Shown piece by piece: positions 21,001 through 48,372 of a stretch of 64,000 nucleotides of DNA. The stretch covers positions 1 to 64,000 of the forward strand of contig NZ_QOHG01000010.1 of assembly GCF_003319125.1 (NCBI RefSeq), written 5' to 3'. A program made the translations under genes and the position numbers. Every line of letters starts with the position of its first letter. The stretch's first letter is position 1. Source of the DNA: Blastococcus sp. TF02A-26 (GTDB lineage: Bacteria > Actinomycetota > Actinomycetes > Mycobacteriales > Geodermatophilaceae). Under the pieces are notes generated by a model. That model did no database searches and was not told where the DNA came from. It saw only the letters and a program-made list of their open reading frames with translations.

Positions 21001-21059
21001 GGCCTCGGTGCAGGGGCCCGCTGTGAGCTCGCGAACAGCGGGGGGCAGCGAGGTCCTTC
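21001..21059 (-). repeat. Family 2 palindromic element, copy 1
   Basis: A 59-bp element, read on the minus strand from GAAGGACC to GAGGCC. The outer stem pairs positions 4-15 with 49-59 (one bulged A and one C-C mismatch), the inner stem CCCGCTGT pairs with ACAGCGGG, and the ten-base loop is TCGCGAGCTC. It starts two bases after the stop codon of the upstream gene. Related copies are at 41621-41677 and 48167-48225. Confidence 0.85.
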
Positions 21060-21061
21060 AA

Positions 21062-22024
21062 CTACTGCGCCGACAGGGGCCGGCCGTCCGGCGCGAGGAA
21101 CGAGGTCCGCACCGCGTGGGGCGTGAAGCCGAGGACGTGCTGCAGCTCCCGGCCGACGAGCGTCCCGCGGGCGACCACCTCGCCGCTCCGGACCAGCTCG
21201 TCGCGCGGGCCCGCGCCGCCGGCGGAGCGGAACAGCGCGCCGACGTCCGCCCAGCCCGGTCCCGCGACCCCGGCCCGTACGCCCGGGCCGAACCGGAGGA
21301 GCAGCGCCCGCTCGAGCACCTCGACCGACGGCGTCATCAGCACCGGAGGTGTCGCGCCCCGCGGATTCGCGCCCCACCAGTGCCAGACACCGCGCACGCG
21401 CGTGATCCGCTGCCGGTCCGGGCGGCGGCCGCCGTCGAGGTACAGCTCGCCGCGGTCGGGGTCGATCACCGGGTCGGTGCCGTCGCCGCCGTCCCGGATC
21501 CAGTCGTGCAGCCGGGCGACGAGGGCGCGGGCCTCCTCTCCCAGCGGCTCCGCGACCGGCCGCCTCCACCCGGCCGAGGTGGCGGCCTCCGCGTCGAGCT
21601 CCGCCGGGGTGCGGCCGGCGAACTCCGAGACGGCCCGCGCCGCGGACCACCCGGCGGCCGTGGCGCGCAGCCGGCCGCTGTCGCGCTCGCGGACCTCGAC
21701 CGTGCCGTCGGGACGCTCGGTGAGGTCGAAGCGCCAGGCGTCGGGGTGGCGGACCGGCGTGACGCGACCGGGGCCGGGGTGCCGTTCGGCCAGGAAGAGC
21801 TCCACGTCGGCTGCGGTCGGCAGGACGAGTTCCGGCCACGGTCCCCCGCGGTCGTACCGGTCGACCGCGTACTGCCCGTCGGCGCGCCGGGACACCACGA
21901 CCCCGACCTCCCAGGTGCCGACCTGCACCGCGGCGCCCCGCACGACGATCGCCGTGCTGTCGTCCTCGATGCGGTCCCGCCGCCGGTCGAGGACCGCCAT
22001 CAGGTCGGGATCGGGTGCGCCCAC
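21062..22024 (-). CDS. Hypothetical protein, 320 residues
   Basis: Unrecognised soluble protein. It has a strand-rich N-terminal part (STAIVVRGAAVQVGTWEVGV, then GQYAVDRYDRGG), a middle with DAWRFDLTERPDGTVEV and a C-terminal region with DLGEL-like DPDRGELYLDGGRRPD and VRGVWHWWG. No signal peptide or membrane segment. GTG start at 22024 preceded by GGGGAG at nine bases; an in-frame ATG at 22000 is the alternative. It lies 17 bp downstream of the oxygenase gene on the same strand, so the two may form an operon. A family 2 element follows its stop codon. Confidence 0.65.
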   Translation of the reverse strand: MGAPDPDLMAVLDRRRDRIEDDSTAIVVRGAAVQVGTWEVGVVVSRRADGQYAVDRYDRGGPWPELVLPTAADVELFLAERHPGPGRVTPVRHPDAWRFDLTERPDGTVEVRERDSGRLRATAAGWSAARAVSEFAGRTPAELDAEAATSAGWRRPVAEPLGEEARALVARLHDWIRDGGDGTDPVIDPDRGELYLDGGRRPDRQRITRVRGVWHWWGANPRGATPPVLMTPSVEVLERALLLRFGPGVRAGVAGPGWADVGALFRSAGGAGPRDELVRSGEVVARGTLVGRELQHVLGFTPHAVRTSFLAPDGRPLSAQ

Positions 22025-22041
22025 CCGGGCATGCTCCCCGG

Positions 22042-23067
22042 TCAGCCCCTGCTGGCCAGCACCCGGTCGGTCTCCCGGCCGGTGTTCGGGTTGCGCACCC
22101 CCGCCCGCGAGCCGGCCAGCTTCGCCGTCAGGTGCTCCTCGACGGTCACCGGCAGGTACCGGTCGGGGTGCTCCGCGTCGACGCACTGCGGCAGCGTCTC
22201 GATCACCGCGTCGATGTCGCCGTCGCAGAAGAAGGCCGCGGACCGGCGCCGGCGGACGGTGCCGTCGACGACCGGCGGCTTGACCCGGTGCAGCGTCGAC
22301 AGCCAGCGGTCGTTGGTCCACCGCCCGGTGAGGTCCCCGAGGTTGACCAGCAGCGCGCCCTCGGCCGGCTGGACGTCGTGCCACGCGCCGTCGCCGCCGA
22401 GCACCTGCAGGCCGGGCACCCGGTCGGCCCACAGCACGGTGACGATGCCGTAGTCGGTGTGCGCCCCCATGCCGGTCGGCTCGCCGGTGACCGTTCCGGG
22501 CGGCAGGGCGTAGTCGTTCATCCGGAGGACGTCGACCGAGTGGTCGAGGTAGGCGTCGAAGAAGCCCTCCGGGAGGCCGAGCGCGTCGGCGGCCACGGTC
22601 GTGAGCGTCCGGGCGACCCGGCGGGCCTCGGTGAAGTAGGCCCAGACGCGGGCGTCGAAGCCGGGGACCTCCACGGGCCACGGGTTCTCCGCGTAGTGGT
22701 CGGCGGGCAGGTCGTCGCGGCCGTAGGTGGAGCGGGCGGCGCCGACGTTGAACGCCTCGAAGTAGTCGTTGCCGTCGGCGGCGTCGACCCCGAGGGAGAG
22801 CGACAGCGCCTCCGACCGCGGCGGGCTGTAACCGCGGTTGATCTCCGGCGGCGTCCGATACGCGCGCTTGACCTCCGGCGGGAGGGCGAAGAAGTCGTCC
22901 AAGGCGGTGGTGAGCCCGTCGATCACCGCGTCCGGCACCCCGTGGCCGACGACCTGCACGAACCCGACCTCGCGGCAGGCGGCGTCCCAGTCGCGGGCGA
23001 CAGCGGCGCGGTCGCCGTCCCCGGTCACGTACGGGCTGACGTCGACGGTCGGCACCTCGAAGCTCAC
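22042..23067 (-). CDS. 2-oxoglutarate/Fe(II) oxygenase, IPNS-like
   Basis: A 341-residue non-haem iron oxygenase of the isopenicillin-N-synthase-like family. The N-terminal DIOX_N part reads CREVGFVQVVGHGVPD. The iron site is HTDYG (His and Asp of H-x-D) and the distal His in LSTLHRVKPP; the oxoglutarate Arg lies in RRRRSAAFFCDGD. The Y-x-G-R-x-D-like RSTYGRDDLP and FEAFNVG blocks are common in the actinobacterial group of unknown substrate. GTG start at 23067 with TAGCGT seven bases upstream, so leaderless. No penicillin genes are nearby, so beta-lactam synthesis is not implied. Confidence 0.9.
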   Translation of the reverse strand: MSFEVPTVDVSPYVTGDGDRAAVARDWDAACREVGFVQVVGHGVPDAVIDGLTTALDDFFALPPEVKRAYRTPPEINRGYSPPRSEALSLSLGVDAADGNDYFEAFNVGAARSTYGRDDLPADHYAENPWPVEVPGFDARVWAYFTEARRVARTLTTVAADALGLPEGFFDAYLDHSVDVLRMNDYALPPGTVTGEPTGMGAHTDYGIVTVLWADRVPGLQVLGGDGAWHDVQPAEGALLVNLGDLTGRWTNDRWLSTLHRVKPPVVDGTVRRRRSAAFFCDGDIDAVIETLPQCVDAEHPDRYLPVTVEEHLTAKLAGSRAGVRNPNTGRETDRVLASRG

Positions 23068-23074
23068 CGCGCCG

Positions 23075-23080
23075 ACGCTA
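23075..23080 (-). promoter_or_regulatory. Leaderless -10 (TAGCGT) of the oxygenase gene
   Basis: TAGCGT on the minus strand, seven bases before the GTG start at 23067. It separates the oxygenase gene from the LLM gene further upstream. Confidence 0.5.
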
Positions 23081-23137
23081 GGGGCGCGGTGTTTCCCGGC
23101 GGTGACGGCGGGAGGCCGGCGATGTGTCCCCCGCGGC

Positions 23138-23175
23138 GCTCGGGCTCTGCCCCGTACGTGGGGCAGAGCCCGAGC
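23138..23175. repeat. Family 1 palindromic element, copy B
   Basis: A 16-bp perfect stem (GCTCGGGCTCTGCCCC and its complement) with a GTACGT loop, followed by a tail GAGCGGGGAGGTACCTGCC much like that after copy A. Where copies A and C have a T-A pair in the stem, this copy has G-C on both sides, so pairing is kept. It lies between two minus-strand genes, 26 bp after the LLM stop. Confidence 0.8.
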
Positions 23176-23201
23176 GAGCGGGGAGGTACCTGCCCGGCGG
23201 C

Positions 23202-24158
23202 TCAGCGGAAGGCGGGGAGCACGTTCTCCGCGATCCAGTGCAACCCGGCCAGGTGCCCCTCGAGGCTGTCCGGGGCGTCGGCGAGCGACGGCACGCTGGT
23301 GTGGGTGACGCCGAGCCCGGCCAGCCGGCCCACCTCGTCGACGATCTGCTGCGCGCTGGTCGGCCGGAACGCCGAGGGCTGCACCGTGTGGTCCGGGCCG
23401 ATCCGCGGCTGCATGAGCGGGTAGTTGACGCCGAGCGGCCGGCCGTCGCGCAGGTCGGCGACCCGGTCGAGCATCTCGGGCAGCTGCTCGGGCTCCTCCA
23501 GCCACGGCCCCCGGCCCAGCGCCCCACCGGCCGGTGCCCAGCCGTCGCCCTCCCGCGCCGCGCGCCGCAGCGACACCAGCGACCGGCCGCCGAACCACAG
23601 CGGCGGGTGCGGCCGCTGCACCGGCTTCGGCTCGAACACCACGTCGGAGAACCGCACCCAGTCCCCCGCGAACTCCGGAGCCGGCGAGGTCCACAGCTCC
23701 TTCATCGCGGCGACGTACTCGTCCATCACCGCGCCCCGCTCCTCGAACGGCACACCCAGCGCGGCGAACTCCCCCGGCGCCATGCCGACCCCGAAGGTCA
23801 GCGTGACCCGCCCGCCGGACAGGACGTCGAGGGTCGACACGGCCTTCGCGAGGTCCACCGGGTGGTGGTACGGCAGCACGATCACCGCCGAGTTCACCCG
23901 GATCCGCGTCGTCGCCCCGGCCAGGAACGCCATCGCGGTGAACGCGTGCGGCCAGTGCGCGCCCATGTTCGCCGTCAGCGACGTGGGGACGACGAGGTGC
24001 TCGGAGACCGAGATCGAGTCGAACCCCAGCTCGTCGGCGGTGCGGGCGATCCGCTGGAAGTCCGCCGTCGTGAGCCGGGCCTGCCACGGCTCGGTGTCGC
24101 CGGCGTACCGGCTCGGTGGGTAGCGGTCGAGGCCGGGCAGGCCGGTCGAGAACCTCAT
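23202..24158 (-). CDS. LLM-class F420-dependent oxidoreductase
   Basis: A 318-residue TIM-barrel oxidoreductase of the luciferase-like family, probably using F420 as in most actinobacterial members. Signature parts are ELGFDSISVSEHLVVPT near the N-terminus, FTAMAFLAGATTRIRVNSAV, and LSGGRVTLTFGVGMAPGEF (the G-G-R-x-x-x-G-x-G block), followed by PHPPLWFGGRS. Substrate unknown. ATG start at 24158, with AAGGAG nine bases upstream. It is divergent from the alcohol dehydrogenase gene with only about 20 bp between the starts. Confidence 0.92.
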   Translation of the reverse strand: MRFSTGLPGLDRYPPSRYAGDTEPWQARLTTADFQRIARTADELGFDSISVSEHLVVPTSLTANMGAHWPHAFTAMAFLAGATTRIRVNSAVIVLPYHHPVDLAKAVSTLDVLSGGRVTLTFGVGMAPGEFAALGVPFEERGAVMDEYVAAMKELWTSPAPEFAGDWVRFSDVVFEPKPVQRPHPPLWFGGRSLVSLRRAAREGDGWAPAGGALGRGPWLEEPEQLPEMLDRVADLRDGRPLGVNYPLMQPRIGPDHTVQPSAFRPTSAQQIVDEVGRLAGLGVTHTSVPSLADAPDSLEGHLAGLHWIAENVLPAFR

Positions 24159-24178
24159 CCTGTGCTCTCCTTCACGGC

Positions 24179-25141
24179 GTGCTGACCACCAGCCTCGACG
24201 CCGCGCGCACGGTAGCGGTCCGCGAGGTCCCCGAGCCGGTCGTCGAGCGGCCCACCGACGCCGTCGTCCGCGTCACCGCCACGTGCATCTGCGGCTCGGA
24301 CCTCCACCCCTACCGCGGTGCCGGCGTCGCCCTGCCGATGCTCATGGGCCACGAGTTCCTCGGCGTCGTCACCGACGCCGGCTCCGCGGTCCGCACGGTC
24401 TCCCCCGGCGACCTCGTGGTCCCGCACTTCGCGGTCGTCGACGGCACCTGCGACAGCTGCCGGCGCGACGTCCCCGGCTCCTGCGCACGGCTCTCCTTCT
24501 ACGGGCAGCCGGACGCCGAGGGGGTGCCCACCGTCGGTGCGCAGTCGCAGGTCGTCCGCGTGCCGCTGGCCGACGGCACCCTGCTGCGGGTCGGCGACCG
24601 GCCGGGCGACGTCACCGACGCCGATCTCCTCGCGCTCTCCGACGTCATGGCCACCGGCCACCACGCCGCGGTCACCAGCGGGGTGGGTCCGGGCTCCACC
24701 GTGGTCGTGGTGGGCGACGGCGCGGTCGGTCTGTCCGCCGTCCTCGCCGCCCGCCGGCTGGGCGCCGAGCGCGGCCGGGACGGCGTGGCCGCGGTCCGGG
24801 AGCTCCTCGGCCGGGACGGCGCCGACGCGGTGTGCGAGTGCGTCGGCAGCCAGGACGCCGTCGACACCGCCGTCGCCGTCACCCGGCCCGGCGGCGCGGT
24901 CGGCTTCGTCGGCGCGCCGCAGGCGGTCCTGCCCTTCCGCCGGCTGTTCATGCGGAACGTCCGCGCCGGCGGCGGCGTGGCGCCGGTGCGCGCCTACCTG
25001 CCCGACCTGCTCGACGCGGTGCTCACCGGCGGCCTCCGCCCCGGGCGGGTGTTCGACCGCGAGCTGCCGCTCACCGACGCCGCGGAGGGCTACCGGGCCA
25101 TGGACGCCCGCGAGGCCGTGAAGGTGCTGCTGCGCCCCTGA
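24179..25141 (+). CDS. Zinc-dependent alcohol dehydrogenase with internal deletion
   Basis: A 320-residue medium-chain dehydrogenase. The catalytic zinc part is present (CICGSDLHPYRG, GHEFLGVV), as are CDSCRRDVPGSC of the structural-zinc loop and the Rossmann start VVVVGDGAVGLSAVLAARRL. Right after LGAE, however, the sequence jumps to RGRDGVAAVRELLG; related enzymes have about 25 more residues there, holding the second strand and the cofactor-ribose loop. The total length is correspondingly short (relatives about 340-350). The reading frame is intact. I infer an in-frame deletion that probably abolishes or alters NAD(P) binding. GTG start at 24179. Confidence 0.85.
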   Translation: MLTTSLDAARTVAVREVPEPVVERPTDAVVRVTATCICGSDLHPYRGAGVALPMLMGHEFLGVVTDAGSAVRTVSPGDLVVPHFAVVDGTCDSCRRDVPGSCARLSFYGQPDAEGVPTVGAQSQVVRVPLADGTLLRVGDRPGDVTDADLLALSDVMATGHHAAVTSGVGPGSTVVVVGDGAVGLSAVLAARRLGAERGRDGVAAVRELLGRDGADAVCECVGSQDAVDTAVAVTRPGGAVGFVGAPQAVLPFRRLFMRNVRAGGGVAPVRAYLPDLLDAVLTGGLRPGRVFDRELPLTDAAEGYRAMDAREAVKVLLRP

Positions 25142-25150
25142 GGGCCGGGA

Positions 25151-25906
25151 TCAGCCCTTCTCGGCCTGCCGGCGCATGGACCACATCTGGGCCGGGCGCT
25201 CGAACTGCGTGGCGATCTCCCACGACACCGCCGTCGCCGTCTCCTTGCGGAAGTTGCCCACGGTCACCCGCGCCAGCTCCGGGTCGGCGGCGACGCGGGC
25301 GGCCAGCTCCCGGGCACGCAACTCCACGGCGTCGGCGTCCACGGCCTCCCAGGCCAGCCCGAGCTCCACGGCCTTGGCGCCGCTGATCTCCTCGCCGAAC
25401 AGCACCATCGCCGCGGCCGCCTCCCGGCCGATCAGCCGCGACAGGATCACGAAGTGCCCGCCGCCGGGGTGCATGCCGCGCTTGAGGAAGCCGGCCAGCA
25501 GCCGTGCGTCGGTCGCCACGACCCGCAGGTCGGTGGCCAGCAGCATGTTCATCCCTGCGCCGACGGCCGACCCCCGCACCGCGGCGATCGTCGGCACCTT
25601 GACCTGGCCGAGCCGGTAGAAGGAGTCGTAGATCGCCGTCATGCCGTCGTAGAGGTCGGGCGCGGCCGGGTCCTCGCCGGCGGCCTTCAGCGTCGCGACG
25701 TCGCCACCGGCGCAGAACGACTTGCCGACCGCGGTGACCACCAGCGCGCCCACCTCCGGCCGGGCGTCGACCTCGTCGAAGGTGGCGCTCAGCTCGCGGG
25801 CCATCGCCGGGGTGAGCGCGTTGCGCCGGTCGGGCGCGTTCAGCGTCACGACCGCGACGCCCCCGTCGACCTCGAGCAGGACCTCACCGGAACCGGACTC
25901 GGCCAC
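25151..25906 (-). CDS. Enoyl-CoA hydratase/isomerase
   Basis: A 251-residue crotonase-fold enzyme. The CoA pocket and oxyanion parts are NAPDRRNALTPAMARELS, GKSFCAGGDVATLKAAG and AAVRGSAVGAGMNMLLATDL; the acid residue region is AGFLKRGMHPGGGHFVILSR. It likely hydrates enoyl-CoA or isomerises the double bond in fatty-acid or aromatic-acid breakdown. I prefer the GTG at 25906, which has GAAGAGG at a proper distance; a GTG two codons upstream lies too close to it. It ends 9 bp from the convergent dehydrogenase gene. Confidence 0.92.
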   Translation of the reverse strand: MAESGSGEVLLEVDGGVAVVTLNAPDRRNALTPAMARELSATFDEVDARPEVGALVVTAVGKSFCAGGDVATLKAAGEDPAAPDLYDGMTAIYDSFYRLGQVKVPTIAAVRGSAVGAGMNMLLATDLRVVATDARLLAGFLKRGMHPGGGHFVILSRLIGREAAAAMVLFGEEISGAKAVELGLAWEAVDADAVELRARELAARVAADPELARVTVGNFRKETATAVSWEIATQFERPAQMWSMRRQAEKG

Positions 25907-25951
25907 GACCACACCTCTTCACGCGTCGGAGAACCCTTCGCCGGAATCAGA

Positions 25952-26827
25952 TCACGCCGGTCCCAGCACCTGCTCGACGGCGTCGGCGAGCAGCCGCTGC
26001 CCCTCCGGCGTCGGGTGCACGTCGTCCGGGTGCACCAGCCCGGCGCGCTCGGCCGTCCCGCCCGCGGCCTCCGCGAGCGGCCGGAACAGCGCGTCGACGT
26101 CGGCGAACGCGGCGCCGGAGGCCTCCGCCGCAGCGGCCAGTGCCCGGTTCAGCGGCTCGCTGCCGGGCAGCGGGACGGGGTCGCCGTAGTCCAGCGAGTA
26201 GTAGCCGAGGACGACGATCGGGCCGTCGTACCCGCCCTCGGTCCGCAGCGCGGCGAGGATGGCGGCGACGCCCGGCTCCACCTGCCGGCCCAGCGCCTCC
26301 CGCCCCTCCGGGGTGTCGCAGGCGCCGGACCGGTCGCACAGGAAGGCGTCGTTGGCGCCGATCTGCAGGGTGACCAGCTCGACGTCCTCGGTCCCCCGCA
26401 GCACCCGCAACGCCTCGTCGAGCTGGGAGCCGTCGTAGTCGACGTGCAGCGGGTACGCGTCGCGGAAACCCGGCTCCTGCCCGGCCACGTTCGTGCAGCC
26501 GTAGTTGTCCGCCGTGACGTCGCCGAAGCTCGCCGTCGACTCGCCGGGACAGGTCGTGTTGACGACCTCCAGCCCGCGGGCCTCGCCGATCAGCTCCGGA
26601 TAGCCGACGAAGGCGTCGGGATCCGCGTAGCCGCCGGGGTGGTCGTCGACGAAGCCGAACGGGATCGAGTCGCCGAGCGCGAGGTAGGTGCCGCGCGCCT
26701 CGGCCGCGGGCGCGGCGTCCTCGGCGGAGTCGTCGGCGGAGTCGTCGGCGGCGCAGGCGGCCAGGGTCCCGGCGGTGAGGACGGCGAGCAGGGAGGCGCG
26801 GGCCCGCCGGCCCCGGGACCGGCGCAT
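25952..26827 (-). CDS. SGNH/GDSL-family lipoprotein hydrolase
   Basis: A 291-residue exported esterase or lipase. The N-terminus ARASLLAVLTAGTLAAC ends in a lipobox Cys and is followed by an acidic linker with repeats of DDSA. The catalytic Ser lies in YLALGDSIPFGF (block I), the oxyanion Asn in VTLQIGANDAFLC (block III), and the Asp-x-x-His pair in HPDDVHPTPEGQRL (block V). It may act on cell-envelope or extracellular esters. ATG start with CAGGAT six bases upstream, suggesting a leaderless transcript. Confidence 0.93.
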   Translation of the reverse strand: MRRSRGRRARASLLAVLTAGTLAACAADDSADDSAEDAAPAAEARGTYLALGDSIPFGFVDDHPGGYADPDAFVGYPELIGEARGLEVVNTTCPGESTASFGDVTADNYGCTNVAGQEPGFRDAYPLHVDYDGSQLDEALRVLRGTEDVELVTLQIGANDAFLCDRSGACDTPEGREALGRQVEPGVAAILAALRTEGGYDGPIVVLGYYSLDYGDPVPLPGSEPLNRALAAAAEASGAAFADVDALFRPLAEAAGGTAERAGLVHPDDVHPTPEGQRLLADAVEQVLGPA

Positions 26828-26844
26828 GGCCCCATCCTGACCGG

Positions 26845-27066
26845 TCAGCGGCCGTCGATCATCCCCGGCATCGGCGGGGCCTCCGGGCGGCTGCGGCCGG
26901 TGGCCCGGCGGACGATGCGGGCCACGGCGACCGTGTCGATCAGCGCCCCGACGGCGATCAGCACCCAGCCGGCCGTCGTCGAACCGGTGACCAGCAGGAC
27001 GACACCGACCGCGAGGACGGCCATCGCGACCGCGACCAGCAGCAACTCCCGGGGAACGGCACCCAT
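26845..27066 (-). CDS. Two-helix small membrane protein
   Basis: A 73-residue protein with two hydrophobic helices (LLLVAVAMAVLAVGVVLLV and GWVLIAVGALIDTVAVARIV) and a basic, Pro-rich tail. Not recognised. ATG start at 27066 with CAGGGT six bases upstream. It lies 17 bp upstream of the GDSL lipoprotein gene and could be transcribed with it. Confidence 0.6.
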   Translation of the reverse strand: MGAVPRELLLVAVAMAVLAVGVVLLVTGSTTAGWVLIAVGALIDTVAVARIVRRATGRSRPEAPPMPGMIDGR

Positions 27067-27174
27067 GGCGCCACCCTGGCACGTCCCGGCGACCGGCGGG
27101 GTGGTCGCTCACCCGGCCGGGCCGGCCGGTCGTGGGTAGCGTCGGACGCGACGACGACGTCGGAGGGGGACCCG

Positions 27175-27939
27175 ATGGACGCCGACCTCGTGCTGCCCAG
27201 CGTCGGCCCCGAGCCGATCAGGGCGGACGACGCCCTGGCCGCCGTGACCGGCTACGCCCTGGGCCGGCGGCCGCTGCGCTTCCGCGCGCCGAACGCCCGC
27301 GAGGGGCGCTGGGTCCACGTGCGGGCGTTCGCCTTCGAGCGGTTCGACCGGCAGCCGCCGGAGACCTCGGCGCGCATGACCGACCGGGACGTACTGCTCG
27401 CCGAGGGCCTGCACGGACGCCTCGACCCGGCCGGCTGGACCGCCGTCCGCACCGCCCTGGACGCGAGCCTCCCCGTGGCCGAGGAGGCCGTCCGCCGGGC
27501 CGGCGAACGGGCCTTCTGGGAGCTCCCCGAGGAGCACACCAGCGTGCTCGCCGAGCCCGGCACCGTCGGCGCCGCGCTGCGGACCCTGGCCGAGGGACCG
27601 CACGCGCCGTACGTCCTCGCCGCGCTGCACCACCGCCGGCCGGCACTGTTCCCGCTGCTCGACGGGATCGCCCGGCGGCAGCTGTGGCCGCACACCGCCG
27701 AGGGCGACAGCGGTGTGCACGCCGTGGTGCTGCGCGAGCTGCGCGCCAACGCGGCCGCGTTCGCGCTGCTCGAGGCCTGGGTCCGCACCGCCCTGGGCAT
27801 GCCGGTGACCCGGCTTCGGCTGCACGACGTGCTGCTCTGGCTCGCTGGCTCCCTGCGCTGGGAGACCGCCGTCGCCCTCGGCCGGGACGCCGTCGCCGAG
27901 ACCGGGCCACGCCGGCCGGCCGCCGCGGGCGTGCGCTGA
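27175..27939 (+). CDS. Hypothetical protein, possibly DUF6308
   Basis: A 254-residue soluble protein with LPSVGPEPIRADDALAAVTG, ARMTDRDVLLAEGLHGRLD, FWELPEEHTSVLAEPGTVGA, and a C-terminal SLRWETAVALGRDA. The middle block (WTAVRTALDASLPVAEEAV) is helical. I think this matches the actinobacterial DUF6308 family, but with low certainty; its role is unknown. The ATG at 27175 follows the good ribosome site GGAGGGGG. A TAGCGT -10 about 37 bp upstream would give a transcript with a true leader, unlike many genes here. Stop codon is 1 bp from the convergent ligase gene. Confidence 0.7.
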   Translation: MDADLVLPSVGPEPIRADDALAAVTGYALGRRPLRFRAPNAREGRWVHVRAFAFERFDRQPPETSARMTDRDVLLAEGLHGRLDPAGWTAVRTALDASLPVAEEAVRRAGERAFWELPEEHTSVLAEPGTVGAALRTLAEGPHAPYVLAALHHRRPALFPLLDGIARRQLWPHTAEGDSGVHAVVLRELRANAAAFALLEAWVRTALGMPVTRLRLHDVLLWLAGSLRWETAVALGRDAVAETGPRRPAAAGVR

Positions 27940-27940
27940 C

Positions 27941-40700: not shown

Positions 40701-40706
40701 GGCCCG

Positions 40707-40865: not shown

Positions 40866-41594
40866 ATGCCCACCCTCGCGGTCCGTCCCGCTCCCTCCCC
40901 GACCCCGGTCCCCTCCGCTCCCGCGGCGCCGTGCCGGGCCACGGCCCACCAGCTCGTGGTCCACCGGCTGGCACGCCGCGAGTTCCGCGTCCTCGCCCGC
41001 CTGGCCACCTGGGCCGCCGCCGACGACGCCGCCCGCACCGCCGCCCTGGCCGCGCACGCCGACCTCGTGGGCCGGGTGCTCCTGCACCACCACGCCCTCG
41101 AGCGCGAGCTGATCTGGCCCGCCCTGCTCCGGGAGCTGCCCGATCGCGACGCCGACCGCGCCCGGGACCGGATCGCCGACTGGACCGCCCGGTGCGCGCG
41201 GGTGGACCACCTGCTGCGCGACATCTCCACCGCGGCCCGGCAGTGGTCGGTGACCGGCACCGGGGCCGCCCGGGACGCCTTCGCGATGGCCTGCCTGGTG
41301 CTGGCCGGCGCGGTCGACGAGCAGACCGGCGAGGAGGAGCGGGAGCTGCTCCCCCTCCTGGCCGCCCTGCCCGCGCAGCGGTGGTCGGAGATCACCGCCT
41401 CGGCCGGGTGCGCCCTGTCGGGCCGGGAGCAGCTGTTCGTGCTCGGCCGGGCCCTGGAGGACGCGCCTCCCGGTGAGCGGTCCCGGATGCTGGCCGCGCT
41501 GCCGCCGGCCACCCGGACCGCGTGGCGGCTCTCCGGCCGCCGCCGCTACCGCGCCGCGGTCATCCGGTTGCGCGGCGAGCCGCCCGCTCCCTGA
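40866..41594 (+). CDS. Hemerythrin-like domain protein
   Basis: A 242-residue protein with a hemerythrin-type four-helix bundle. Metal-ligand candidates are the His of HQLVVHRLARREFRVL, HHHALERELIWPALL and EEERELLPLLAALP, with the usual H-x-x-x-E spacings. The C-terminal region (MLAALPPATRTAWRLSGRRR, YRAAVIRLRG) is basic. Such proteins bind O2, NO or iron, or act as stress sensors. ATG start at 40866; a TTGCCC/TACCGT promoter with a 16-bp spacer lies about 40 bp upstream. It is divergent from the rsbQ-like operon and may belong to the same stress response. Confidence 0.8.
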   Translation: MPTLAVRPAPSPTPVPSAPAAPCRATAHQLVVHRLARREFRVLARLATWAAADDAARTAALAAHADLVGRVLLHHHALERELIWPALLRELPDRDADRARDRIADWTARCARVDHLLRDISTAARQWSVTGTGAARDAFAMACLVLAGAVDEQTGEEERELLPLLAALPAQRWSEITASAGCALSGREQLFVLGRALEDAPPGERSRMLAALPPATRTAWRLSGRRRYRAAVIRLRGEPPAP

Positions 41595-41620
41595 CGGGGC
41601 CTCACTCCGACCGTCCCTTC

Positions 41621-41677
41621 GGCCTCGGCGCAGGGGCCCGCCGCGAGCGCGCGAGCGGTGGGGCGGCGAGGTCCTTC
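41621..41677 (-). repeat. Family 2 palindromic element, copy 2
   Basis: A 57-bp element read on the minus strand from GAAGGACC to GAGGCC, with loop TCGCGCGCTC. In the outer stem the T-A pair of copy 1 is replaced by C-G. It starts one base after the stop codon of the zinc-ribbon gene and lies between convergent genes. Confidence 0.85.
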
Positions 41678-41678
41678 T

Positions 41679-41979: not shown

Positions 41980-42612
41980 GTGACCCCCACGTTCGTCCTC
42001 GTCCCCGGTGCCGGCGGGCAGGCCTGGTACTGGCACCGCGTCGTCCCCGAGCTGGAGCGGCGGGGCTTCCCCGCCGTCGCCGTCGACCTGCCGGCGGACG
42101 ACGACACCGCCGGGCTGGCCGTCTACGCCGACGCCGTGGTCGCCGCGGCCGGCGACGCCGCGGACGTCGTCCTCGTGGCGCAGTCGATGGGCGGCCTGAC
42201 GGCACCGCTGGTGTGCGACCGGCTGCCGGTGCGGCTGCTCGTGCTGCTCAACGCGATGGTGCCGCGCCCCGGGGAGACCGGCGGGGACTGGTGGGCCGCG
42301 ACCGGTCACGACGTCGACGCATCCGACGACGCCTTCGTCCACGACGTGCCGGCCGAGGTGCTGGCGACCGCGCCACCGCCGCGCGACCAGTCCGGCCGGC
42401 CGTTCGAGGATCCGTGGCCGCTGCCGGCGTGGCCCGACGTCCGCACCGTCGTCCTGGCCGGGCGGGACGACCGCTTCTTCCCGCCCGACTTCCAGCGACG
42501 GGTGGCCGCGGAGCGGCTCGGCCTGGAGGTCGGCGAGGTCCCCGGTGGGCACTGCGCCGCGTTGGCCCGTCCCGTCGAGCTCGCGGACCGGCTGGTGTCG
42601 TTGGTCGGGTGA
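41980..42612 (+). CDS. Alpha/beta-hydrolase, EstC-like
   Basis: A 210-residue hydrolase beginning TPTFVLVPGAGGQAWYWHRV (oxyanion region). The nucleophile is the Ser of LVAQSMGGLTAPLV (G replaced by A-Q before Ser), the acid probably the Asp of VLAGRDDRFFPP, and the His in VPGGHCAALARPVELAD. The family includes carboxylesterases and some methylesterases; the substrate is unknown. GTG start at 41980. A downstream gap of 70 bp separates it from the helD-like gene. Confidence 0.85.
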   Translation: MTPTFVLVPGAGGQAWYWHRVVPELERRGFPAVAVDLPADDDTAGLAVYADAVVAAAGDAADVVLVAQSMGGLTAPLVCDRLPVRLLVLLNAMVPRPGETGGDWWAATGHDVDASDDAFVHDVPAEVLATAPPPRDQSGRPFEDPWPLPAWPDVRTVVLAGRDDRFFPPDFQRRVAAERLGLEVGEVPGGHCAALARPVELADRLVSLVG

Positions 42613-42683
42613 GCCGCGGCGCCTCCGGCCCCGCGGACGCGCACAATGGTCGGTCCGTCCCGAGCCGACCAGAGAGAAGCGCG

Positions 42684-45014
42684 TTGCCGTCCACCCGGTC
42701 CGATGTCGTCCCCCACTCCGAGCTGGCCACCGAGCAGGAGTACGTCACCGATCTGTACCGGCGGCTCGACGCCGCTCGCGACCTCGCCGCTCGCCGGCTG
42801 CGCCAGGCGATCACGTCCCCCGCGGTGTCCCCGCAGGACCTGCAGGAGCGCGACGCGACGGTCCGCTTCCAGTCGGAGCGGGTGACCGCGCTGGACGCGG
42901 CCGAGGCCGGTCTGGTCGTCGGCCGGATCGACCGGGCCGAGGAGGGCGCGCTCTACGTCGGCCGGATCGGGCTGGCCGCCGACGACGTCTCCACCGACCC
43001 GGCACTCGTCGACTGGCGCGCCCCCGCGGCCCGGCCCTTCTACACCGCGACGCCGATGCACCCGCTCGGGATCGTCCGCCGCCGGCACATCCGCACCCGC
43101 GGGCGCACCGTGACCCGGCTCGACGACGAGCTCATCGACGCGGTCGGGGCGGCCGACACCGAGGGGCTGCAGATCACCGGCGAGGCGGCGCTGCTGGCCG
43201 CGCTCGGCGCCTCGCGGACCGGCCGGATGACCGACATCGTCCGCACCATCCAGGGCGAGCAGGACCGGATCATCCGCGCCGACGCCAACGGCGTGCTGGT
43301 CGTGCAGGGCGGGCCCGGAACCGGCAAGACCGCCGTGGCGCTGCACCGGGCGGCCTACCTGCTCTACACGCACCGCGAGCGCCTGGCCCGGCGCGGTCTG
43401 CTGGTGGTCGGGCCGACGCCGACGTTCCTGCGCTACATCGCCGACGTGCTGCCCTCCCTCGGCGAGACCGGCGTGCTGCTGTCGGGGCTGGGCCAGCTGC
43501 GGCCGGGGATCGACGCGCGGGCCGCGGAGTCGCCGGAGGCCGCTGCCGTCAAGGGCCGGCTGGAGATGGTCGAGGTGCTCGAGCGGGCCGTCGCCGCCCG
43601 CCAGGTCGTGCCGGACGCCCCTCTCGAGATCGTCGTCGACGGGACGCCGCTGCGGCTGCGCCCGATCGACGTCGCCCGGGCCGGCCGGTCGGCCGTGCGG
43701 GCCGCCCGGCTGCACAACCTGGCCCGCCCGGAGTTCGCCCGCCGCATCGTCGACCTGCTCGCCAAGCGCTACGCGGAGAAGCTCGGCGAGGGGATCCAGG
43801 GCGGGCGGGACCTGTTCGGCCGCGACGACCTCGGCTCGCTCCGCCGGGAGGTGGCCGGCGACCCGGGCGTGCAGGCGCTGGTCCAGCGGCTGTGGCCGCG
43901 GCTGACGCCGGAGCGGTTCCTGCGCGAGTTCTACGCCGACCCGGCCGCGATCGCCGCCGCCACGCCGGACTGGAGCGAGACGGACCGGGCGCTGCTGCAC
44001 CGGGCCGACGACTTCCCACCCACCCACTGGACGCCCGCCGACGTCCCGCTGCTCGAGGAGGCCGACGAGCTGCTCGGCACCGACGACTCGGCCGAGCGCA
44101 GCCGCGCCGGCCGCGACCGGCGCCGCCGGCTGGCCGAGGCGCAGGCGACGCTGGACCTGCTGCACGGCTCCCGCTCCACCGACCTGGAGGACGACGAGGA
44201 GGGCTCGCACCTGGAAGCCGAGGTGCTCAGCGCCGGCGACCTGCTCACCGCCGAGCGGCTGGCCGACCGGCAGAGCGAGCTGGACTTCCGCACCACCGCC
44301 GAGCGGGCCGCCGCCGACCGCACCTGGACGTTCGGCCACGTCGTCGTCGACGAGGCGCAGGAGCTGTCGCCGATGGCGTGGCGGCTGCTGGTGCGGCGCT
44401 GCCCGACGCGGTCGATGACCGTCGTGGGCGACGTCGCGCAGACCGGCTCGCTGGCCGGCGCCGACCGCTGGGCGGAGGTCCTCGACCCGCACGCGAAGGG
44501 CCTGTGGCGGCTGGAGGAGCTGACCGTCAACTACCGGACGCCGGCCGAGATCATGGCCGTGGCCGCCGACGTGCTGGCCGCCGGCGGCACCGGGCTCACC
44601 CCGCCGCGGTCGGTCCGCGAGGGCGGCGAGCAGCCGTGGGCCGCGCGGGTGGCGGAGGCCGAGCTCCCCGGGCGGGCCGCCACCTGCGCCGCCGAGTGGT
44701 CCGCGCACGAGGGGACGCTGGCGGTGATCGTCCCGCCCAGCCGGGTGGCGTCGGTGACCACGGCCCTGGCGGCGGCGCTGCCCGCGGTCTCCTCCGGACC
44801 GGACGCGGACTCCGCGCTCGGCCCGGTGGTGCTCACGCCGACCGAGGCCAAGGGGCTGGAGTTCGACTCGGTGCTCGTCGTGGACCCGCAGGGCGTGCTC
44901 GACGAGGGGGTGCGCGGCCGCAACGACCTCTACGTCGCCCTCACCCGCGCCACGCAGCGGCTCGGCGTCCTGACGCCCGGCCCACTGCCCGCGGAGCTGG
45001 CCCGCCTGGGCTGA
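42684..45014 (+). CDS. HelD-type RNA polymerase-recycling helicase
   Basis: A 776-residue superfamily 1 ATPase of the HelD/HelR group, which pry stalled RNA polymerase off DNA and, in some actinobacteria, protect it from rifamycins. The N-terminal part (EQEYVTDLYRRLDAARDLAA) is the coiled-coil arm that enters the secondary channel. Walker A is VVQGGPGTGKTAVALHRAA near residue 210, motif II reads VVVDEAQELSPMAW, motif III VGDVAQTGS and the C-terminal motif VI region is DLYVALTRATQRLGVLTPG. TTG start at 42684 is preceded by GAGAGAAG; a CACAAT -10 lies about 45 bp upstream. I see no rifamycin-associated element. Confidence 0.93.
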   Translation: MPSTRSDVVPHSELATEQEYVTDLYRRLDAARDLAARRLRQAITSPAVSPQDLQERDATVRFQSERVTALDAAEAGLVVGRIDRAEEGALYVGRIGLAADDVSTDPALVDWRAPAARPFYTATPMHPLGIVRRRHIRTRGRTVTRLDDELIDAVGAADTEGLQITGEAALLAALGASRTGRMTDIVRTIQGEQDRIIRADANGVLVVQGGPGTGKTAVALHRAAYLLYTHRERLARRGLLVVGPTPTFLRYIADVLPSLGETGVLLSGLGQLRPGIDARAAESPEAAAVKGRLEMVEVLERAVAARQVVPDAPLEIVVDGTPLRLRPIDVARAGRSAVRAARLHNLARPEFARRIVDLLAKRYAEKLGEGIQGGRDLFGRDDLGSLRREVAGDPGVQALVQRLWPRLTPERFLREFYADPAAIAAATPDWSETDRALLHRADDFPPTHWTPADVPLLEEADELLGTDDSAERSRAGRDRRRRLAEAQATLDLLHGSRSTDLEDDEEGSHLEAEVLSAGDLLTAERLADRQSELDFRTTAERAAADRTWTFGHVVVDEAQELSPMAWRLLVRRCPTRSMTVVGDVAQTGSLAGADRWAEVLDPHAKGLWRLEELTVNYRTPAEIMAVAADVLAAGGTGLTPPRSVREGGEQPWAARVAEAELPGRAATCAAEWSAHEGTLAVIVPPSRVASVTTALAAALPAVSSGPDADSALGPVVLTPTEAKGLEFDSVLVVDPQGVLDEGVRGRNDLYVALTRATQRLGVLTPGPLPAELARLG

Positions 45015-45018
45015 GGGT

Positions 45019-45234
45019 CTAGCGGGACCGCGGGGCGCGGGTCGCGGGAGGACGACGGTGCGCCGAGTACTCCACGAAGCCGACCGCGGCGGCGGTGAGC
45101 ACGAGGCCGGCCACGCCCCAGAAGACGAGGGAGACCCCGGCCGTCGTCGCGCGCTCGGTCTCGGCCCGGATCAGACCGACGAAGAGCATCAGCAGGGACA
45201 GCGCAGCCCCCAGCGGGGCGAGCCACCGGCTCAT
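45019..45234 (-). CDS. Two-helix small membrane protein
   Basis: A 71-residue protein with two hydrophobic helices (WLAPLGAALSLLMLFVGLI and VSLVFWGVAGLVLTAAAVGF) and a basic C-terminal tail (EYSAHRRPPATRAPRSR). ATG start at 45234, with GAGGAGGG just upstream. It ends 4 bp before the convergent helD-like stop. Function unknown. Confidence 0.65.
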   Translation of the reverse strand: MSRWLAPLGAALSLLMLFVGLIRAETERATTAGVSLVFWGVAGLVLTAAAVGFVEYSAHRRPPATRAPRSR

Positions 45235-45361
45235 CGCGATCCCTCCTCGTCCTCGGTCGTCGTCCGGACCCACCGTCCCCCACGGCACCCGGACCGGCCA
45301 CGAGGTCGGGAAGCGCGCCGGTCGCGCCCTCGCGGAGCGTGACCGGTCGGGCCACCGTCCG

Positions 45362-46636
45362 TCAGGCCGCGGTCTCCCGGACGTGCAACCGCACACCGCT
45401 GGCCGGGCGGGCCGGGATCCGCCGCAGGGAGATGGTCAGGTCCTGCTGGGGCGCCTCGGCGTCGAGCCGGGCCAGCCGCTGCGCCAGCGCGGCCAGCAGG
45501 CCGACGGTGATCTGCTCGCCGGGGCAGCGGTGGTTGGTGCGCGGGTCTCCCCCGCCCTGCGGGACGAACTCGAAGGCGCCGATCTCCCGGTCGAGGAAGC
45601 GCTCGGGACGGAACGCGTAGGGCTCGGGCCACAGCTCGGGGTCGTGGTTGGTGCCCCAGAGGTCGAGCAGCACCATCGAGTGCTTCGGGATGCGGACGCC
45701 GTCGTACTCCAGCGCCTGCGGCGCCCGGCCGCCGATGAACGGGGCGAACGGGTAGAAGCGGCGGACCTCGTGCGCCCACGCCTCGGCGAACGCCGCGTCG
45801 CCGCTCGCCAGCCGCTCGCGGTGCTGCGGCCAGCGGATCAGCGCGTGCCCGGAGTAGGCGACGAACCAGGCGATGGCGGTGGTCGGCCGGATGACGTTCA
45901 GCAGCTCGACGGCGCAGGTCTGCGGGCTGAGGAGCTCGCCGTCGGCGTCGCGGTGGTGGACGACGACGTCGACGACCGAGCCGGTGGGGACGGTCCGCCG
46001 CCCGGCGCGGACGTCGTCCACGAGGCCGGCCAGCCAGCGCTCCCGCCGCCCGCGAGCCCGCCGGGCGCGCCAGTGCCGCGGGCCGCCGGTGGCGAAGCCG
46101 TCGACCATCGCCGTCAGGTCTGTCGCCAGGGCCGGCACCTCGTCGTCGGTCACCGGGACGCCGGCCCAGCGGGTCACCGAGCCGGCCAGGACGCGCGCCG
46201 CCTCGTCGAACAGGACGATCTCCCGGCCGGCCCAGGTGGCCGCGGCGTCGTCCCAGGCCTGGGCGGTGCGCTCGACCAGGGCGGTGCTGCCGCCACCCTC
46301 CGGCCCGTCCTTCATGAGCAGGGCGACGAACATCGCCTTCCGCACCCGGTGCAGGTCGCCGTCGAGGGTGTGCACGGCACCCTTCCCGAAGAGCGTGCCC
46401 TGCACCGGCTCGGGGATCGCGTGCGCTCGGTGGACGTGCTCCTCGTCGTAGAGGAAGCGCCCGGCGTCGGGGCCGACGATCCCGGTGGCGGGCAGTCCGC
46501 CGAGGAGGACGCCGACGGTCCGGCTGCTCCGCGTGCGACGTGCGTCGGGCAGCCAGCCGTAGCCCTTGGCGAACAGCAGGGGCGAGTTCTCCAGGCGCAT
46601 GAGATGCGGACTGCCCAGGGACCGGGCTCCTGACAC
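45362..46636 (-). CDS. CYP152-type cytochrome P450 peroxygenase
   Basis: A 424-residue P450 that fits the fatty-acid peroxygenase subfamily (P450-BSbeta, SPalpha, OleT), which uses H2O2 instead of a redox partner. The I-helix reads IRPTTAIAWFVAY, with the Arg-Pro pair that binds the substrate carboxylate in place of the usual acid-alcohol pair. The K-helix E-x-x-R is in EVRRFYPFAPFI and the haem Cys in NHRCPGEQITVGLL, after FVPQGGGD. It would hydroxylate or decarboxylate fatty acids. GTG start at 46636 is uncertain; an in-frame ATG 12 codons later is good too. Confidence 0.9.
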   Translation of the reverse strand: MSGARSLGSPHLMRLENSPLLFAKGYGWLPDARRTRSSRTVGVLLGGLPATGIVGPDAGRFLYDEEHVHRAHAIPEPVQGTLFGKGAVHTLDGDLHRVRKAMFVALLMKDGPEGGGSTALVERTAQAWDDAAATWAGREIVLFDEAARVLAGSVTRWAGVPVTDDEVPALATDLTAMVDGFATGGPRHWRARRARGRRERWLAGLVDDVRAGRRTVPTGSVVDVVVHHRDADGELLSPQTCAVELLNVIRPTTAIAWFVAYSGHALIRWPQHRERLASGDAAFAEAWAHEVRRFYPFAPFIGGRAPQALEYDGVRIPKHSMVLLDLWGTNHDPELWPEPYAFRPERFLDREIGAFEFVPQGGGDPRTNHRCPGEQITVGLLAALAQRLARLDAEAPQQDLTISLRRIPARPASGVRLHVRETAA

Positions 46637-46657
46637 GGACGGCCGATGTGCTGATCG

Positions 46658-46951
46658 CTACCGCCGATGGATGGTCAGCGCCCGGCCGGGGCGGCGGACC
46701 ATGTCCCAGATCGCGGAGAACGGCAGCGCGACATCGACGCTGACCTCGTCGTCGTCCGCCACCTCGATCGTCAGCGGCGGTGTGCGCGTCCAGTCCATCC
46801 GTCCCCGCACGGTGTACGTGCCGGCCGGGAGCGGGACGGCGGCGGACTCCCCCTGTCTGAGCGCCGCGACCTCTCGGTCGTCCACGAGCACGCGGAGCCG
46901 CCGGAGTATGCCGCCGCCGTCACGGGGCCGGCTGAGTCGGAGCGTCGCCAC
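46658..46951 (-). CDS. Small beta-rich hypothetical protein
   Basis: A 97-residue protein with strand-like segments: LRVLVDDREVAAL, GESAAVPLPAGTYTVRGRMD and EVSVDVALPFSAIWDMVRRP. The pattern (regular strands with an AGTYTVRGR hairpin) is like carboxypeptidase-regulatory or PEGA-type beta domains. No signal peptide. GTG start at 46951, with TAGCGT six bases upstream, so a leaderless gene. Ends 21 bp before the P450 gene start and may be co-transcribed. Confidence 0.65.
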   Translation of the reverse strand: MATLRLSRPRDGGGILRRLRVLVDDREVAALRQGESAAVPLPAGTYTVRGRMDWTRTPPLTIEVADDDEVSVDVALPFSAIWDMVRRPGRALTIHRR

Positions 46952-47106
46952 GATCGAACGCTAGATCCGCACGGTCCCGCGGGCCGATCGACGACGACTG
47001 TCCATTGCGGGCAGCCCGACGGCAACGCGCTCCGCAAGTACGGACGCCAATCCGTGGACAAGCGTCTGACCTGCGGAAACAGGTCGCCCGCGGTCGTCGC
47101 AAGCGG

Positions 47107-47127
47107 TAGAATCGAACACACATTCGA
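47107..47127 (+). promoter_or_regulatory. Promoter -10 overlapped by a LexA-type SOS box
   Basis: TAGAAT (-10) runs directly into TCGAACACACATTCGA at 47112-47127, one base from the actinobacterial SOS-box consensus TCGAAC-N4-GTTCGA. The box covers the probable start point of transcription, so LexA would repress the DUF222 gene until DNA damage. Confidence 0.75.
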
Positions 47128-47145
47128 AGGGGCGAGGAGGCGGTC

Positions 47146-48372
47146 GTGGGCGAGTTGCAGTCGGCACTCGACGAGCTCGCGGGCCTGGACCTCGACGAGT
47201 TCTCCGACGGGCCGCTGCTGGACCACCTCCGCGAGGTCGTGACCACGGTCAACCGCCTCACGGCTCACGCCGTCCGGGTGACGCGCCGGGCGGACGTGCG
47301 GCTGGCGTGCGAGCACGACGGCGCGAAGACGATGCAGTCCTGGCTGCGCGGACACCTACGGATCTCCGGCTCGCTGGCCAAGGACCTGGTCGGGCTGGGC
47401 AGGGTCCTCGCCCAGCTTCCGGCGACCGAAGCGGCGTTCGCCGCCGGCCACCTGGGGGCTGACCAGGTCGAGGTCATCGCGAAGATCATCGAACCGGCCC
47501 ACCTCGACAAAGCCACCGCCCAGGGCATCGACGTCCGTGAAGTCGAGACCGCACTGGTCACCGTCGCCCTCCACGGCACCCACCGCGACCTGCAGCTCGC
47601 CGTCGGGGAGTACCTGGCCAAGCTCGACCCCGACGGCACCGAACCCGACCCCACCGAGGAGCGGGCCTTCACCCTCGTGCAGCATCCCGACGGCACCTGG
47701 ACGGTGCACGGCACCCTCGACGAGGTCGGCGGGCAGAAGGTCGCCACCGCCCTGGAGTCCATGTCCGCCGCCGGCCGCTGCGCCGGCGACGGGCGCACCC
47801 GCTCCCAACGTGGCGGCGACGCCCTCGTCCAGCTCGCCGATCTCGCCCTGGCCTCCGGTCAGCTGCCGGTGCTGCGGACGGTCAAGCCGCACGTCATCGT
47901 CACCATCGGCATCGACGACCTCGTCGACCCCATCACCGGACCCGCCGCCGCCGACACCGGCCTCGGCGCGACCATCTCCGCCGCCCGCGCCCGCTGGACC
48001 GCGTGCGACTCCACCGTCACCCGCATCGTGCTCGACGCCGACGGGCTCCCGATCGACGTCGGACGCGAGCAGCGAGTGGTCCCCGCCCACATCCGCAAGG
48101 CCGTCGAACTCCGCGACGAGACGTGCGTGTTCGCCGGCTGCGAGGCGCCACGCTGGTCTGCGACAGGAAGGACCCCCGTGCCCCCCGCCCCTCGCAGGCT
48201 CGCGGCGGGCCCCTGCACGGGGGCCATCGCAGGAAGATGCGAGCGCCACCACACCAAGGTCCACCACGGCTACCGCGTCGAACGCGACGACACCGCACCA
48301 CCCGGCAGCCGATGGCGCACCTACCGCCCCGACGGCACCGAGATCGTCATCCACGCACCGCTGCGCACCTGA
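47146..48372 (+). CDS. DUF222/HNH (13E12-type) protein, HNH core disrupted
   Basis: A 408-residue member of the 13E12 repeat family. The DUF222 part is complete (VTTVNRLTAHAVRVTRRADV, LGAGHLGADQVEV-like HLGADQVEVIAKIIEPAHL, VHGTLDEVGGQKVATALESM, IVLDADGLPIDVGREQRVVP). The HNH part starts normally (VELRDETCVFAGCEAP) and ends normally (CERHHTKVHHGYRVERDD), but the segment between, expected to hold C-D-x-H-H and the G-G-x-T-x-x-x-N core, reads SATGRTPVPPAPRRLAAGPC instead, from a family 2 palindrome. The frame is kept. Nuclease activity is probably lost. GTG start with GAGGAGG upstream, driven by an SOS-box promoter. Confidence 0.88.
   Translation: MGELQSALDELAGLDLDEFSDGPLLDHLREVVTTVNRLTAHAVRVTRRADVRLACEHDGAKTMQSWLRGHLRISGSLAKDLVGLGRVLAQLPATEAAFAAGHLGADQVEVIAKIIEPAHLDKATAQGIDVREVETALVTVALHGTHRDLQLAVGEYLAKLDPDGTEPDPTEERAFTLVQHPDGTWTVHGTLDEVGGQKVATALESMSAAGRCAGDGRTRSQRGGDALVQLADLALASGQLPVLRTVKPHVIVTIGIDDLVDPITGPAAADTGLGATISAARARWTACDSTVTRIVLDADGLPIDVGREQRVVPAHIRKAVELRDETCVFAGCEAPRWSATGRTPVPPAPRRLAAGPCTGAIAGRCERHHTKVHHGYRVERDDTAPPGSRWRTYRPDGTEIVIHAPLRT
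48167..48225 (+). repeat. Family 2 palindromic element, copy 3, inside a gene
   Basis: A 59-bp element from GAAGGACC to GGGGGCC, 47 of 59 bases identical to copy 1. The outer stem is perfect apart from the bulged A, the inner stem has one C-C mismatch, and the loop is TCGCAGGCTC. It is flanked by AGGAAG at 48165 and again at 48231, 66 bp (22 codons) apart. It lies in frame in the HNH part of the DUF222 gene. Confidence 0.85.

Follow-up and report, generated by a model that had tools for sequence, protein, structure and literature searches.

Three copies of a palindromic sequence are located in contig NZ_QOHG01000010.1 of Blastococcus sp. TF02A-26 (positions 1 to 64,000; this whole 64,000-nt stretch is hereafter the window), and they raise two questions: whether the sequence is maintained as a folded structure, and by what means it has been dispersed.

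Results

Structural conservation and occurrence across the family

The coordinates, strands and sequences of the three copies agree with the original prediction (Table 1), as do the shared 59-nt length of copies 1 and 3, which have 47 identical bases, and the settings of the copies: copy 1 starts 2 nt after a TAG, copy 2 starts 1 nt after a TGA, and a DUF222 gene contains copy 3. The repeated unit is a hairpin of about 59 nt comprising a GAAGG tag, an outer stem interrupted by a single bulged base, an inner stem with its loop, and a terminal GGCC; its unpaired spacer is asymmetric (5 nt vs 2), and constant bases also occur outside the stems. Among 104 distinct copies, the AAGG end, which is fixed by the search pattern, is preceded by G in 81, while GGCC is followed by G in 88 and then by mixed bases. 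AAGGA was also considered as a start codon or Shine-Dalgarno sequence and rejected by inspection, no constant start codon following it.

Table 1. Copies of the element in the window and neighbouring genes
Feature	Position	Strand	Details
DUF4407 gene	19569..20852	-	next after copy 1, codirectional
Copy 1, GAAGGACC...GGCC in the originally predicted orientation	21001..21059	-	covariance model 79.1 bits, E 1.7e-16
ORF, 320 aa	21062..22024	-	ends in the TAG before copy 1; coding by codon score trained in this analysis; no Pfam match
Hemerythrin-domain gene	40956..41594	+	convergent, ends 26 nt beyond copy 2
Copy 2	41621..41677	-	57 nt, C run two letters shorter; folding strand +; covariance model 62.5 bits
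Putative short ORF, 58 aa	41679..41855	-	CxxC..CxxC; ends in the TGA before copy 2
DUF222-type gene	47146..48372	+	harbours copy 3
Copy 3	48167..48225	+	folding strand -; covariance model 74.7 bits

The originally proposed selection of the dispersed element for a single-strand fold is supported by the alignment of 64 diverse copies, in which 95.0% of the cells are paired, double-change cells number 173 vs 49.3 in shuffles, and the covariation score is attained by none of 500 shuffles; pairs that show at least one double change are no more numerous than in shuffles (9 vs 8.1; 149/500 shuffles). The pairs first described as co-varying (9-55, 11-53, 23-38, 25-36 and 13-51) are among the ten strongest column pairs of the 104 distinct copies. 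The description of the differences as compensatory is correct for these pairs, but it passed over two broken ones: copies 1 and 2 have C.C at 12-52, and copy 3 has it at 24-37.

A covariance model was built from 64 seeds, among them copy 1, and detected the three copies with E-values of 1.7e-16, 1.9e-15 and 1.5e-12; no further copy with E < 1 was found in the window, and Rfam yielded no match there at gathering score. A loose pattern matched 36 times in the genome of origin vs 0 times for the reversed control, which, together with the covariance E-values, excludes a chance origin of the three copies. The proposed covariance-model search of related genomes matched 47 of 57 Geodermatophilaceae genomes, not just the three copies. 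At least 93-99 matches each were obtained in 28 of the 57, counts close to the number scored; these soil bacteria of one family often carry about 100 copies per genome. Counts as low as 0 and as high as at least 97 occur, even between species of one genus (at least 97 in G012, 0 in G019), and G019, G004 and G054 are related species with 0-5 matches.

The pattern set comprised at least 202 matches from the genome scan and viral contigs, of which 14 were dropped and 2 overlapping ones removed, leaving 186. Those dropped from the genome scan as chance matches with a differing interior numbered at least 11, seven named ones representing other families. The three matches in viral contigs were all discarded as chance, their interior being different.

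Strand asymmetry and association with gene ends

The mismatches mark the complement of the strand on which the element was originally written as the folding one: in 253 copies the written strand bears 48 A.C vs 7 G.T oppositions (p = 1.3e-8, a value that overstates independence, the copies being related). For copy 1 the same asymmetry favours the plus strand, GGCC...GGTCCTTC. On the folded strand the bulged base is T, the loop is usually GAGC-NN-GCGA with adjacent G.A oppositions, and 18 of 29 three-base loops are GNA-type triloops, although some of the others may be misparsed.

A stop codon on the same strand is found at -2 to +5 nt from AAGGACC in 180 of 264 copies, as compared with 6 of 1320 random positions, and a convergent stop is found at the opposite end in 27 of the 264; the stop adjoining AAGG is TAG in 14. 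The 3' end of gyrB is among the sites, and core genes of this kind have had their 3' ends remodelled by the element across Geodermatophilaceae. By reading, orthologous gyrB-gyrA spacers that lack the element often have another palindrome in its place. A long palindrome suspected behind the element at L281 was rejected, its arms being only 8 bp.

Such positions could be explained by a cis-acting RNA at mRNA 3' ends, gained and kept for a function in termination, stability or ribosome release. The adjacency to stops and the substitute palindromes of the gyrB-gyrA spacers agree with this explanation, and the REPs described in PMC3733652 are likewise mostly downstream of genes. However, the mRNA strand of the upstream gene is the one that bears A.C mismatches where the complement wobbles, and this excess persists before codirectional neighbours (23 to 4). 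A T run after GGCC was not found in the 104 copies, and at two sites (L284 and L286) the element is followed by another, distinct palindrome whose arms measure 21-22 bp and which also occurs in a relative that has a sister type (L323) or no element (L347). We regard a cis-acting RNA as unlikely.

Polymorphic sites and nested copies

Neither the register to the stop codon nor polymorphism of the sites nor nesting of one copy in another could be seen from the three copies in the window. Polymorphism was counted by hand at 26 sites of genome G017 and their orthologues with 90-100% identity in the upstream flank. In G040, the element is present at 13 of the 26 sites and a sister type at 3; one site has a decayed element or another hairpin, and 9 have none. 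In G007, where 23 of the 26 could be compared, 8 have the element, 1 the sister type, 2 remnants and 12 none. At L289, two of those counted as none could be remnants instead. New copies sit behind stops, and at six loci (L322, L338, L407, L408, L415 and L416) the new copy is accompanied by an older, clipped one. At several sites the empty and the filled version are distinguished by a replacement and not by a clean insertion, and loss and repair may therefore account for part of the differences. With regard to the constant-length target duplication typical of a MITE of a DNA transposon, inspection by eye revealed none consistent across the compared sites, with one candidate 8-mer at L286. The GAAGG junction is fixed, and as judged by reading, GGCC is followed by differing extra sequence.

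Copies whose two flanks can pair with each other like an older hairpin number 9 of 288 vs 1.6 with exchanged flanks. The strict test for nesting is passed by 8 of 27 copies in G056 and by 1 of 261 elsewhere; the latter is probably due to chance, and nesting may be peculiar to G056. In the same genome, four identical 58-mers occupy four loci, three of which (L400-L402) have flanks of this type. Six of the eight nested copies lack a preceding stop trinucleotide and two follow TAG, which also argues against a cis-acting RNA at gene ends.

Identity between loci is seen for copy 3 as well: its own genome has identical copies at C16:106476 and C16:235329, each in one of two paralogous genes. This copy replaces the HNH core of its DUF222-type gene (L004), as judged against L053, where an HNH-like core is present; the gene reads through it in frame, whereas the two paralogues are frame-shifted.

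Another possible explanation dispenses with a dedicated enzyme: replication slippage, gene conversion and template switching between palindromes would by themselves spread and homogenise the copies. Tandem partial arrays at L043 (60-bp units, about 20 repeats), the clipped older copies and the replacements noted above are in keeping with these processes, which by contrast do not fit the recurrence of one identical copy at loci whose flanks differ, the fixed register to the stop (180/264) or the constant bases outside the stems. An origin by these processes alone appears highly improbable.

Candidate mobilization enzymes

The transposase search covered the Y1 family. The linked REP-type Y1 transposase that had been suggested was not detected: PF01797 had no match in 23 family genomes, 16 pattern carriers included, and a control search with it was positive in 5 of 14 known genomes. 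The integron integrase model TIGR02249 gave no match above cut-off in 39 genomes; matches below cut-off occur in all 39 and likewise in all 14 controls, and are therefore attributed to ordinary tyrosine recombinases.

The reverse transcriptase domain PF00078 (RVT_1) was found in 9 of 16 carriers and not in the other 7 (G000, G001, G003, G005, G008, G015 and G020), several of which have about 97 element matches or more. This bears on the explanation that a small structured RNA, GGCC...GGUCCUUC, is reverse transcribed into the genome in a SINE-like manner, with one exact end, one ragged end and tolerance of G.U pairs. The fixed GAAGG junction with variable sequence after GGCC, the wobble asymmetry between strands and the adjacent G.A oppositions in the loop would be expected of such an RNA, but the seven RVT_1-less carriers make it rather improbable.

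Discussion

Taken together, these observations argue that the element is probably a non-autonomous, REP-like mobile hairpin propagated as a folded single strand by a trans-acting enzyme. Under this model, the folded strand GGCC...GGTCCTTC, as single-stranded DNA rather than RNA, would be the intermediate, and the enzyme would recognise the constant bases, leaving stem letters free to change in pairs. On insertion, the GAAGG end would be joined at a constant position, with a preference for 1-2 nt after a stop codon; palindromic structure would serve as a target signal, and older copies of the family would be targets too. The GGCC end would be imprecise, with a few target bases lost on insertion.

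A more tentative extension, which we consider possible but doubtful, is a class of hairpin transposons outside Y1/RAYT, with a 59-nt folded strand complementary to the sense strand of the host gene and an enzyme family new to palindromic repeats, targeting stops and palindromes including its own older copies; loci would then build up in layers of elements. The family offers recent insertions, identical copies, a contrast of at least 97 vs 0 within one genus, and a predicted folding strand, and its enzyme can therefore be hunted directly.

Several known systems share part of these features. Like an intrinsic terminator, the hairpin directly follows stop codons, but it has no T run, its wobble pairs are on the other strand, and a separate palindrome is present at two sites. 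From retroelements and SINE-like repeats it is set apart by the lack of reverse transcriptase in 7 of 16 carriers, and from IS200/IS605-derived elements by the lack of TnpA (Y1) in 23 genomes. In integron attC sites, the strand opposite the gene folds, with an extrahelical T and an unpaired spacer, after a stop codon. The hairpin resembles them in all four respects; in contrast, the attC boxes are missing from its consensus, IntI is not found above cut-off in 39 genomes, and no cassette arrays were seen at the loci. The mycobacterial interspersed repetitive unit (MIRU) is another actinobacterial dispersed repeat that is said to enter at stop codons; it differs in being longer, non-palindromic and situated at overlapping stop-start sites.

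Palindromic repeats are targets of IS1397, ISKpn1 and IS621, according to PMC1525189; the likeness lies in the target, but each of these is an insertion sequence that encodes its own transposase, whereas here the inserted unit is the hairpin itself. A term search of PMC12306157 and PMC9686282 did not find the element.

A further comparison is with REPs (GTAG/CGTC, RAYT/TnpA-REP). As described in PMC3733652 and PMC8266576, these are short imperfect palindromes that occur in large numbers, for the most part 3' of genes where the adjacent ORFs are unidirectional or convergent; they may supply the stop codon, have a bulged stem in some cases and fold strand-specifically. The hairpin differs in its length (59 nt vs 20-40), in its GAAGG tag instead of an unpaired terminal GTAG or CGTC, in having no Y1 (RAYT) match in the 23 genomes searched, in nesting within its own kind in one genome, and in its fixed stop register. 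It shares with REPs the short imperfect palindrome, the stem bulge, the high copy number and the location 3' of genes, as well as the strand-specific fold. On strand-specific recognition of the hairpin as single-stranded DNA, the A.C vs G.T asymmetry (48 vs 7) bears only indirectly. Among REPs, the CGTC group has no known mover according to PMC3733652, and it is to this problem that the Geodermatophilaceae hairpin family contributes.

Copies, covariation and distribution

The three copies of the ~59-nt palindromic hairpin agree with the original prediction in position, strand and sequence (see table), and a covariance model seeded with 64 diverse copies identified exactly these three in the window with E < 1. 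The proposed co-variation of the stems also held above background. Among 104 distinct gapless copies (of 109), the top-ranked column pairs are the stem pairs 12-52, 11-53, 9-55, 23-38, 13-51, 24-37 and 10-54. In an alignment of 64 copies, 95.0% of stem cells are paired, double-change cells number 173 versus 49.3 expected, and none of 500 shuffles reached the covariation score; covariation was lost when the partner column was slid by 1-3. The number of stem pairs with any double change in this alignment (9) is no higher than in shuffles (8.1). Bases outside the variable stems are near-constant; the constancy of AAGGACC, GGGCCCCTGC and GGCC in the 104-copy set was imposed by the search pattern and is not independent, and the base after GGG proved variable once the pattern was loosened.

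The element is not confined to three copies: a loose pattern, the reversed control of which gave 0 matches in the same genome, finds 36 in the host genome (4.68 Mb, 53 contigs), and extrapolation from three copies per 64-kb window would give ~220. A slightly looser pattern matches 16 of 39 genomes (host included), all from the family of the window, Geodermatophilaceae; the genera among the matches listed in a scan of named genomes are at least Geodermatophilus, Blastococcus, Modestobacter and Klenkia. The covariance-model search proposed earlier was extended from the window to relatives and gave matches in 47 of 57 family genomes and none in 10, with 4 to 89 matches in 19 genomes and 93-99 each in 28; the latter counts are lower bounds, because they approach the 97 candidates scored per genome. 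Decayed copies and copies of a related hairpin kind of the same overall architecture (the sister type) may be counted among these matches. Across the order, 27 candidates were scored per genome, and matches occur in 31 of 200 genomes. Only 4 of these 31 belong to other families; they have 1-2 matches apiece (one of them weak), which may reflect horizontal transfer or (binning) contamination. Three genomes from two other families (G109, G118, G193) have one or two strong matches each.

Coordinates of the features discussed
Feature	Location	Strand	Remark
Copy 1	window 21001..21059	-	
Copy 2	window 41621..41677	-	
Copy 3	window 48167..48225	+	
DUF222/HNH-type gene	window 47146-48372		HNH core replaced by copy 3
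SIR2_2-domain protein	window 48450-50057		adjoins copy 3
Identical 59-mers in two paralogues	C16:106476 and C16:235329, contig of host genome G000		same site as copy 3; paralogues ~85% identical
Tandem array	L043:1501-2760, locus of genome G015		~twenty nearly identical 60-bp units after one element copy

Position and folding strand

A stop codon on the same strand that ends a coding-scoring frame (by a codon score trained within this analysis) lies -2 to +5 nt from AAGGACC in 180 of 264 copies; the set includes orthologous loci that were fetched deliberately. The equivalent test for convergent genes at the GGCC end gave 27/264, and 6 of 1320 randomly chosen positions in these sequences had a stop in register. 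Distances to AAGGACC are 2 (n=111) or -1 (n=19) for TGA and 0 (n=14) or 3 (n=9) for TAG; in these 153 of the 180 copies, the stop's G either doubles as the element's first G or precedes it by three bases. In an earlier set, the upstream gene is on the element's strand in 127 of 186 copies, the next gene being codirectional in 75 of these, convergent in 44 and undecided in 8.

Read from AAGGACC to GGCC, non-Watson-Crick cells are mostly A.C: in the nine outer pairs of 253 distinct copies, A.C exceeds G.T by 48 to 7 (p = 1.3e-8, which overstates independence since the copies are related), by 21 to 0 where the next gene is convergent and by 23 to 4 where it is codirectional. The same cells are G.U or G.T wobbles on the complement strand, where the usual loop, GAGC-NN-GCGA, could form adjacent G.A pairs. 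The element therefore seems to owe its form to the strand that is antisense to the preceding gene, an argument against a simple mRNA role.

Turnover, nesting and mobility

Element sites vary among relatives. The gyrB-gyrA spacer was read at 49 loci (from 51 matches in 57 genomes): AAGGACC occurs <=80 nt past the gyrB stop in 12 and its complement in 3, the remainder, by reading, have a decayed copy, the sister type or another palindrome there, or lack any of these. G017, G040, G007 and G057 are genomes of one genus; by hand count, of 26 G017 sites, 13 have the element in G040 (one decayed), 3 have the sister type, 1 has either a decayed element or another hairpin, and 9 have none. In G007, the 23 sites fetched comprise 8 with the element, 1 with the sister type, 2 with remnants and 12 with none. 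Opposite orientations occur at orthologous sites, adjoining the other gene's stop (L154 versus L102, L030 versus L040). Loci L284 and L286 have a separate palindrome (21-22 bp arms), with the element between it and the stop. This palindrome is also present in a relative that has the sister type (L323) or lacks the element (L347), as expected if the element entered ahead of an existing terminator.

Newer copies also overlie older ones. A reversed sister-type copy lies directly behind a TAG in L338, and a sister-type copy occupies the old junction in L322; in both, the older downstream copy is without its AAGGACC end. Newer copies behind a stop trinucleotide adjoin likewise clipped copies in L407, L408, L415 and L416. 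Tails made of repeated parts (L078, L125, L128, L136, L191) and the L043 array are consistent with several events at the same spot, or with slippage. Genome G056 carries four identical 58-mers at four loci with differing flanks; around three of them (L400-L402), the flanking sequences pair into an older hairpin belonging to the same superfamily. A strict nesting test was positive for 9 of 288 copies versus 1.6 on average when flanks were exchanged; eight are in G056, which has 27 copies in the set, and the ninth (L054) is probably chance. In all eight, a G precedes the inserted copy (GAG, TAG, ATG, TTG, TGG, GTG).

The sister type has a near-fixed outer stem, CCCCGTCC/GGACGGGG, with an architecture like the element's (L209, L213, L214, L217, L224, L227, L344, L401), and may be related to family 1 of the original prediction. 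GTTCCA directly follows GGCC in 49 of 288 copies (e.g. L031, L042, L108, L125, L139), in 30 as GTTCCA-N5-TCAC, possibly left over from a longer unit or from older copies in layers.

The place of copy 3 is occupied by an HNH-like core in L053, whereas all three DUF222 paralogues of the host genome have lost this core to the same element copy; sequence downstream of the 59-mer is 90-96% identical among them. We infer a single old event, carried along as the gene spread, rather than three insertions; the similar 3' ends of the three paralogues suggest duplication or gene conversion of a broken gene.

That the element is mobile is shown by its nesting, its polymorphic sites and the identical copies at unrelated loci. 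A folded single-strand intermediate is suggested by the one fixed and one ragged end, the few target bases lost and the asymmetry between strands.

Comparison with known systems

The REP-type Y1 transposase expected as partner had no match in 23 family genomes, integron integrase exceeded the cut-off in none of 39 genomes, and reverse transcriptase is absent from 7 of 16 carriers; the tested movers are absent or unneeded. A description of the element was not found in the literature searched, mostly outside subscription journals. Strand-specific hairpin recognition via bulges or an unpaired T is described for TnpA-REP and the IS608 transposase (PMC8266576). By analogy, the bulged T of the element may serve recognition. 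The defining tag and transposase of described REP groups were tested for and not found here, but REP is the nearest kind, and the element works like it.
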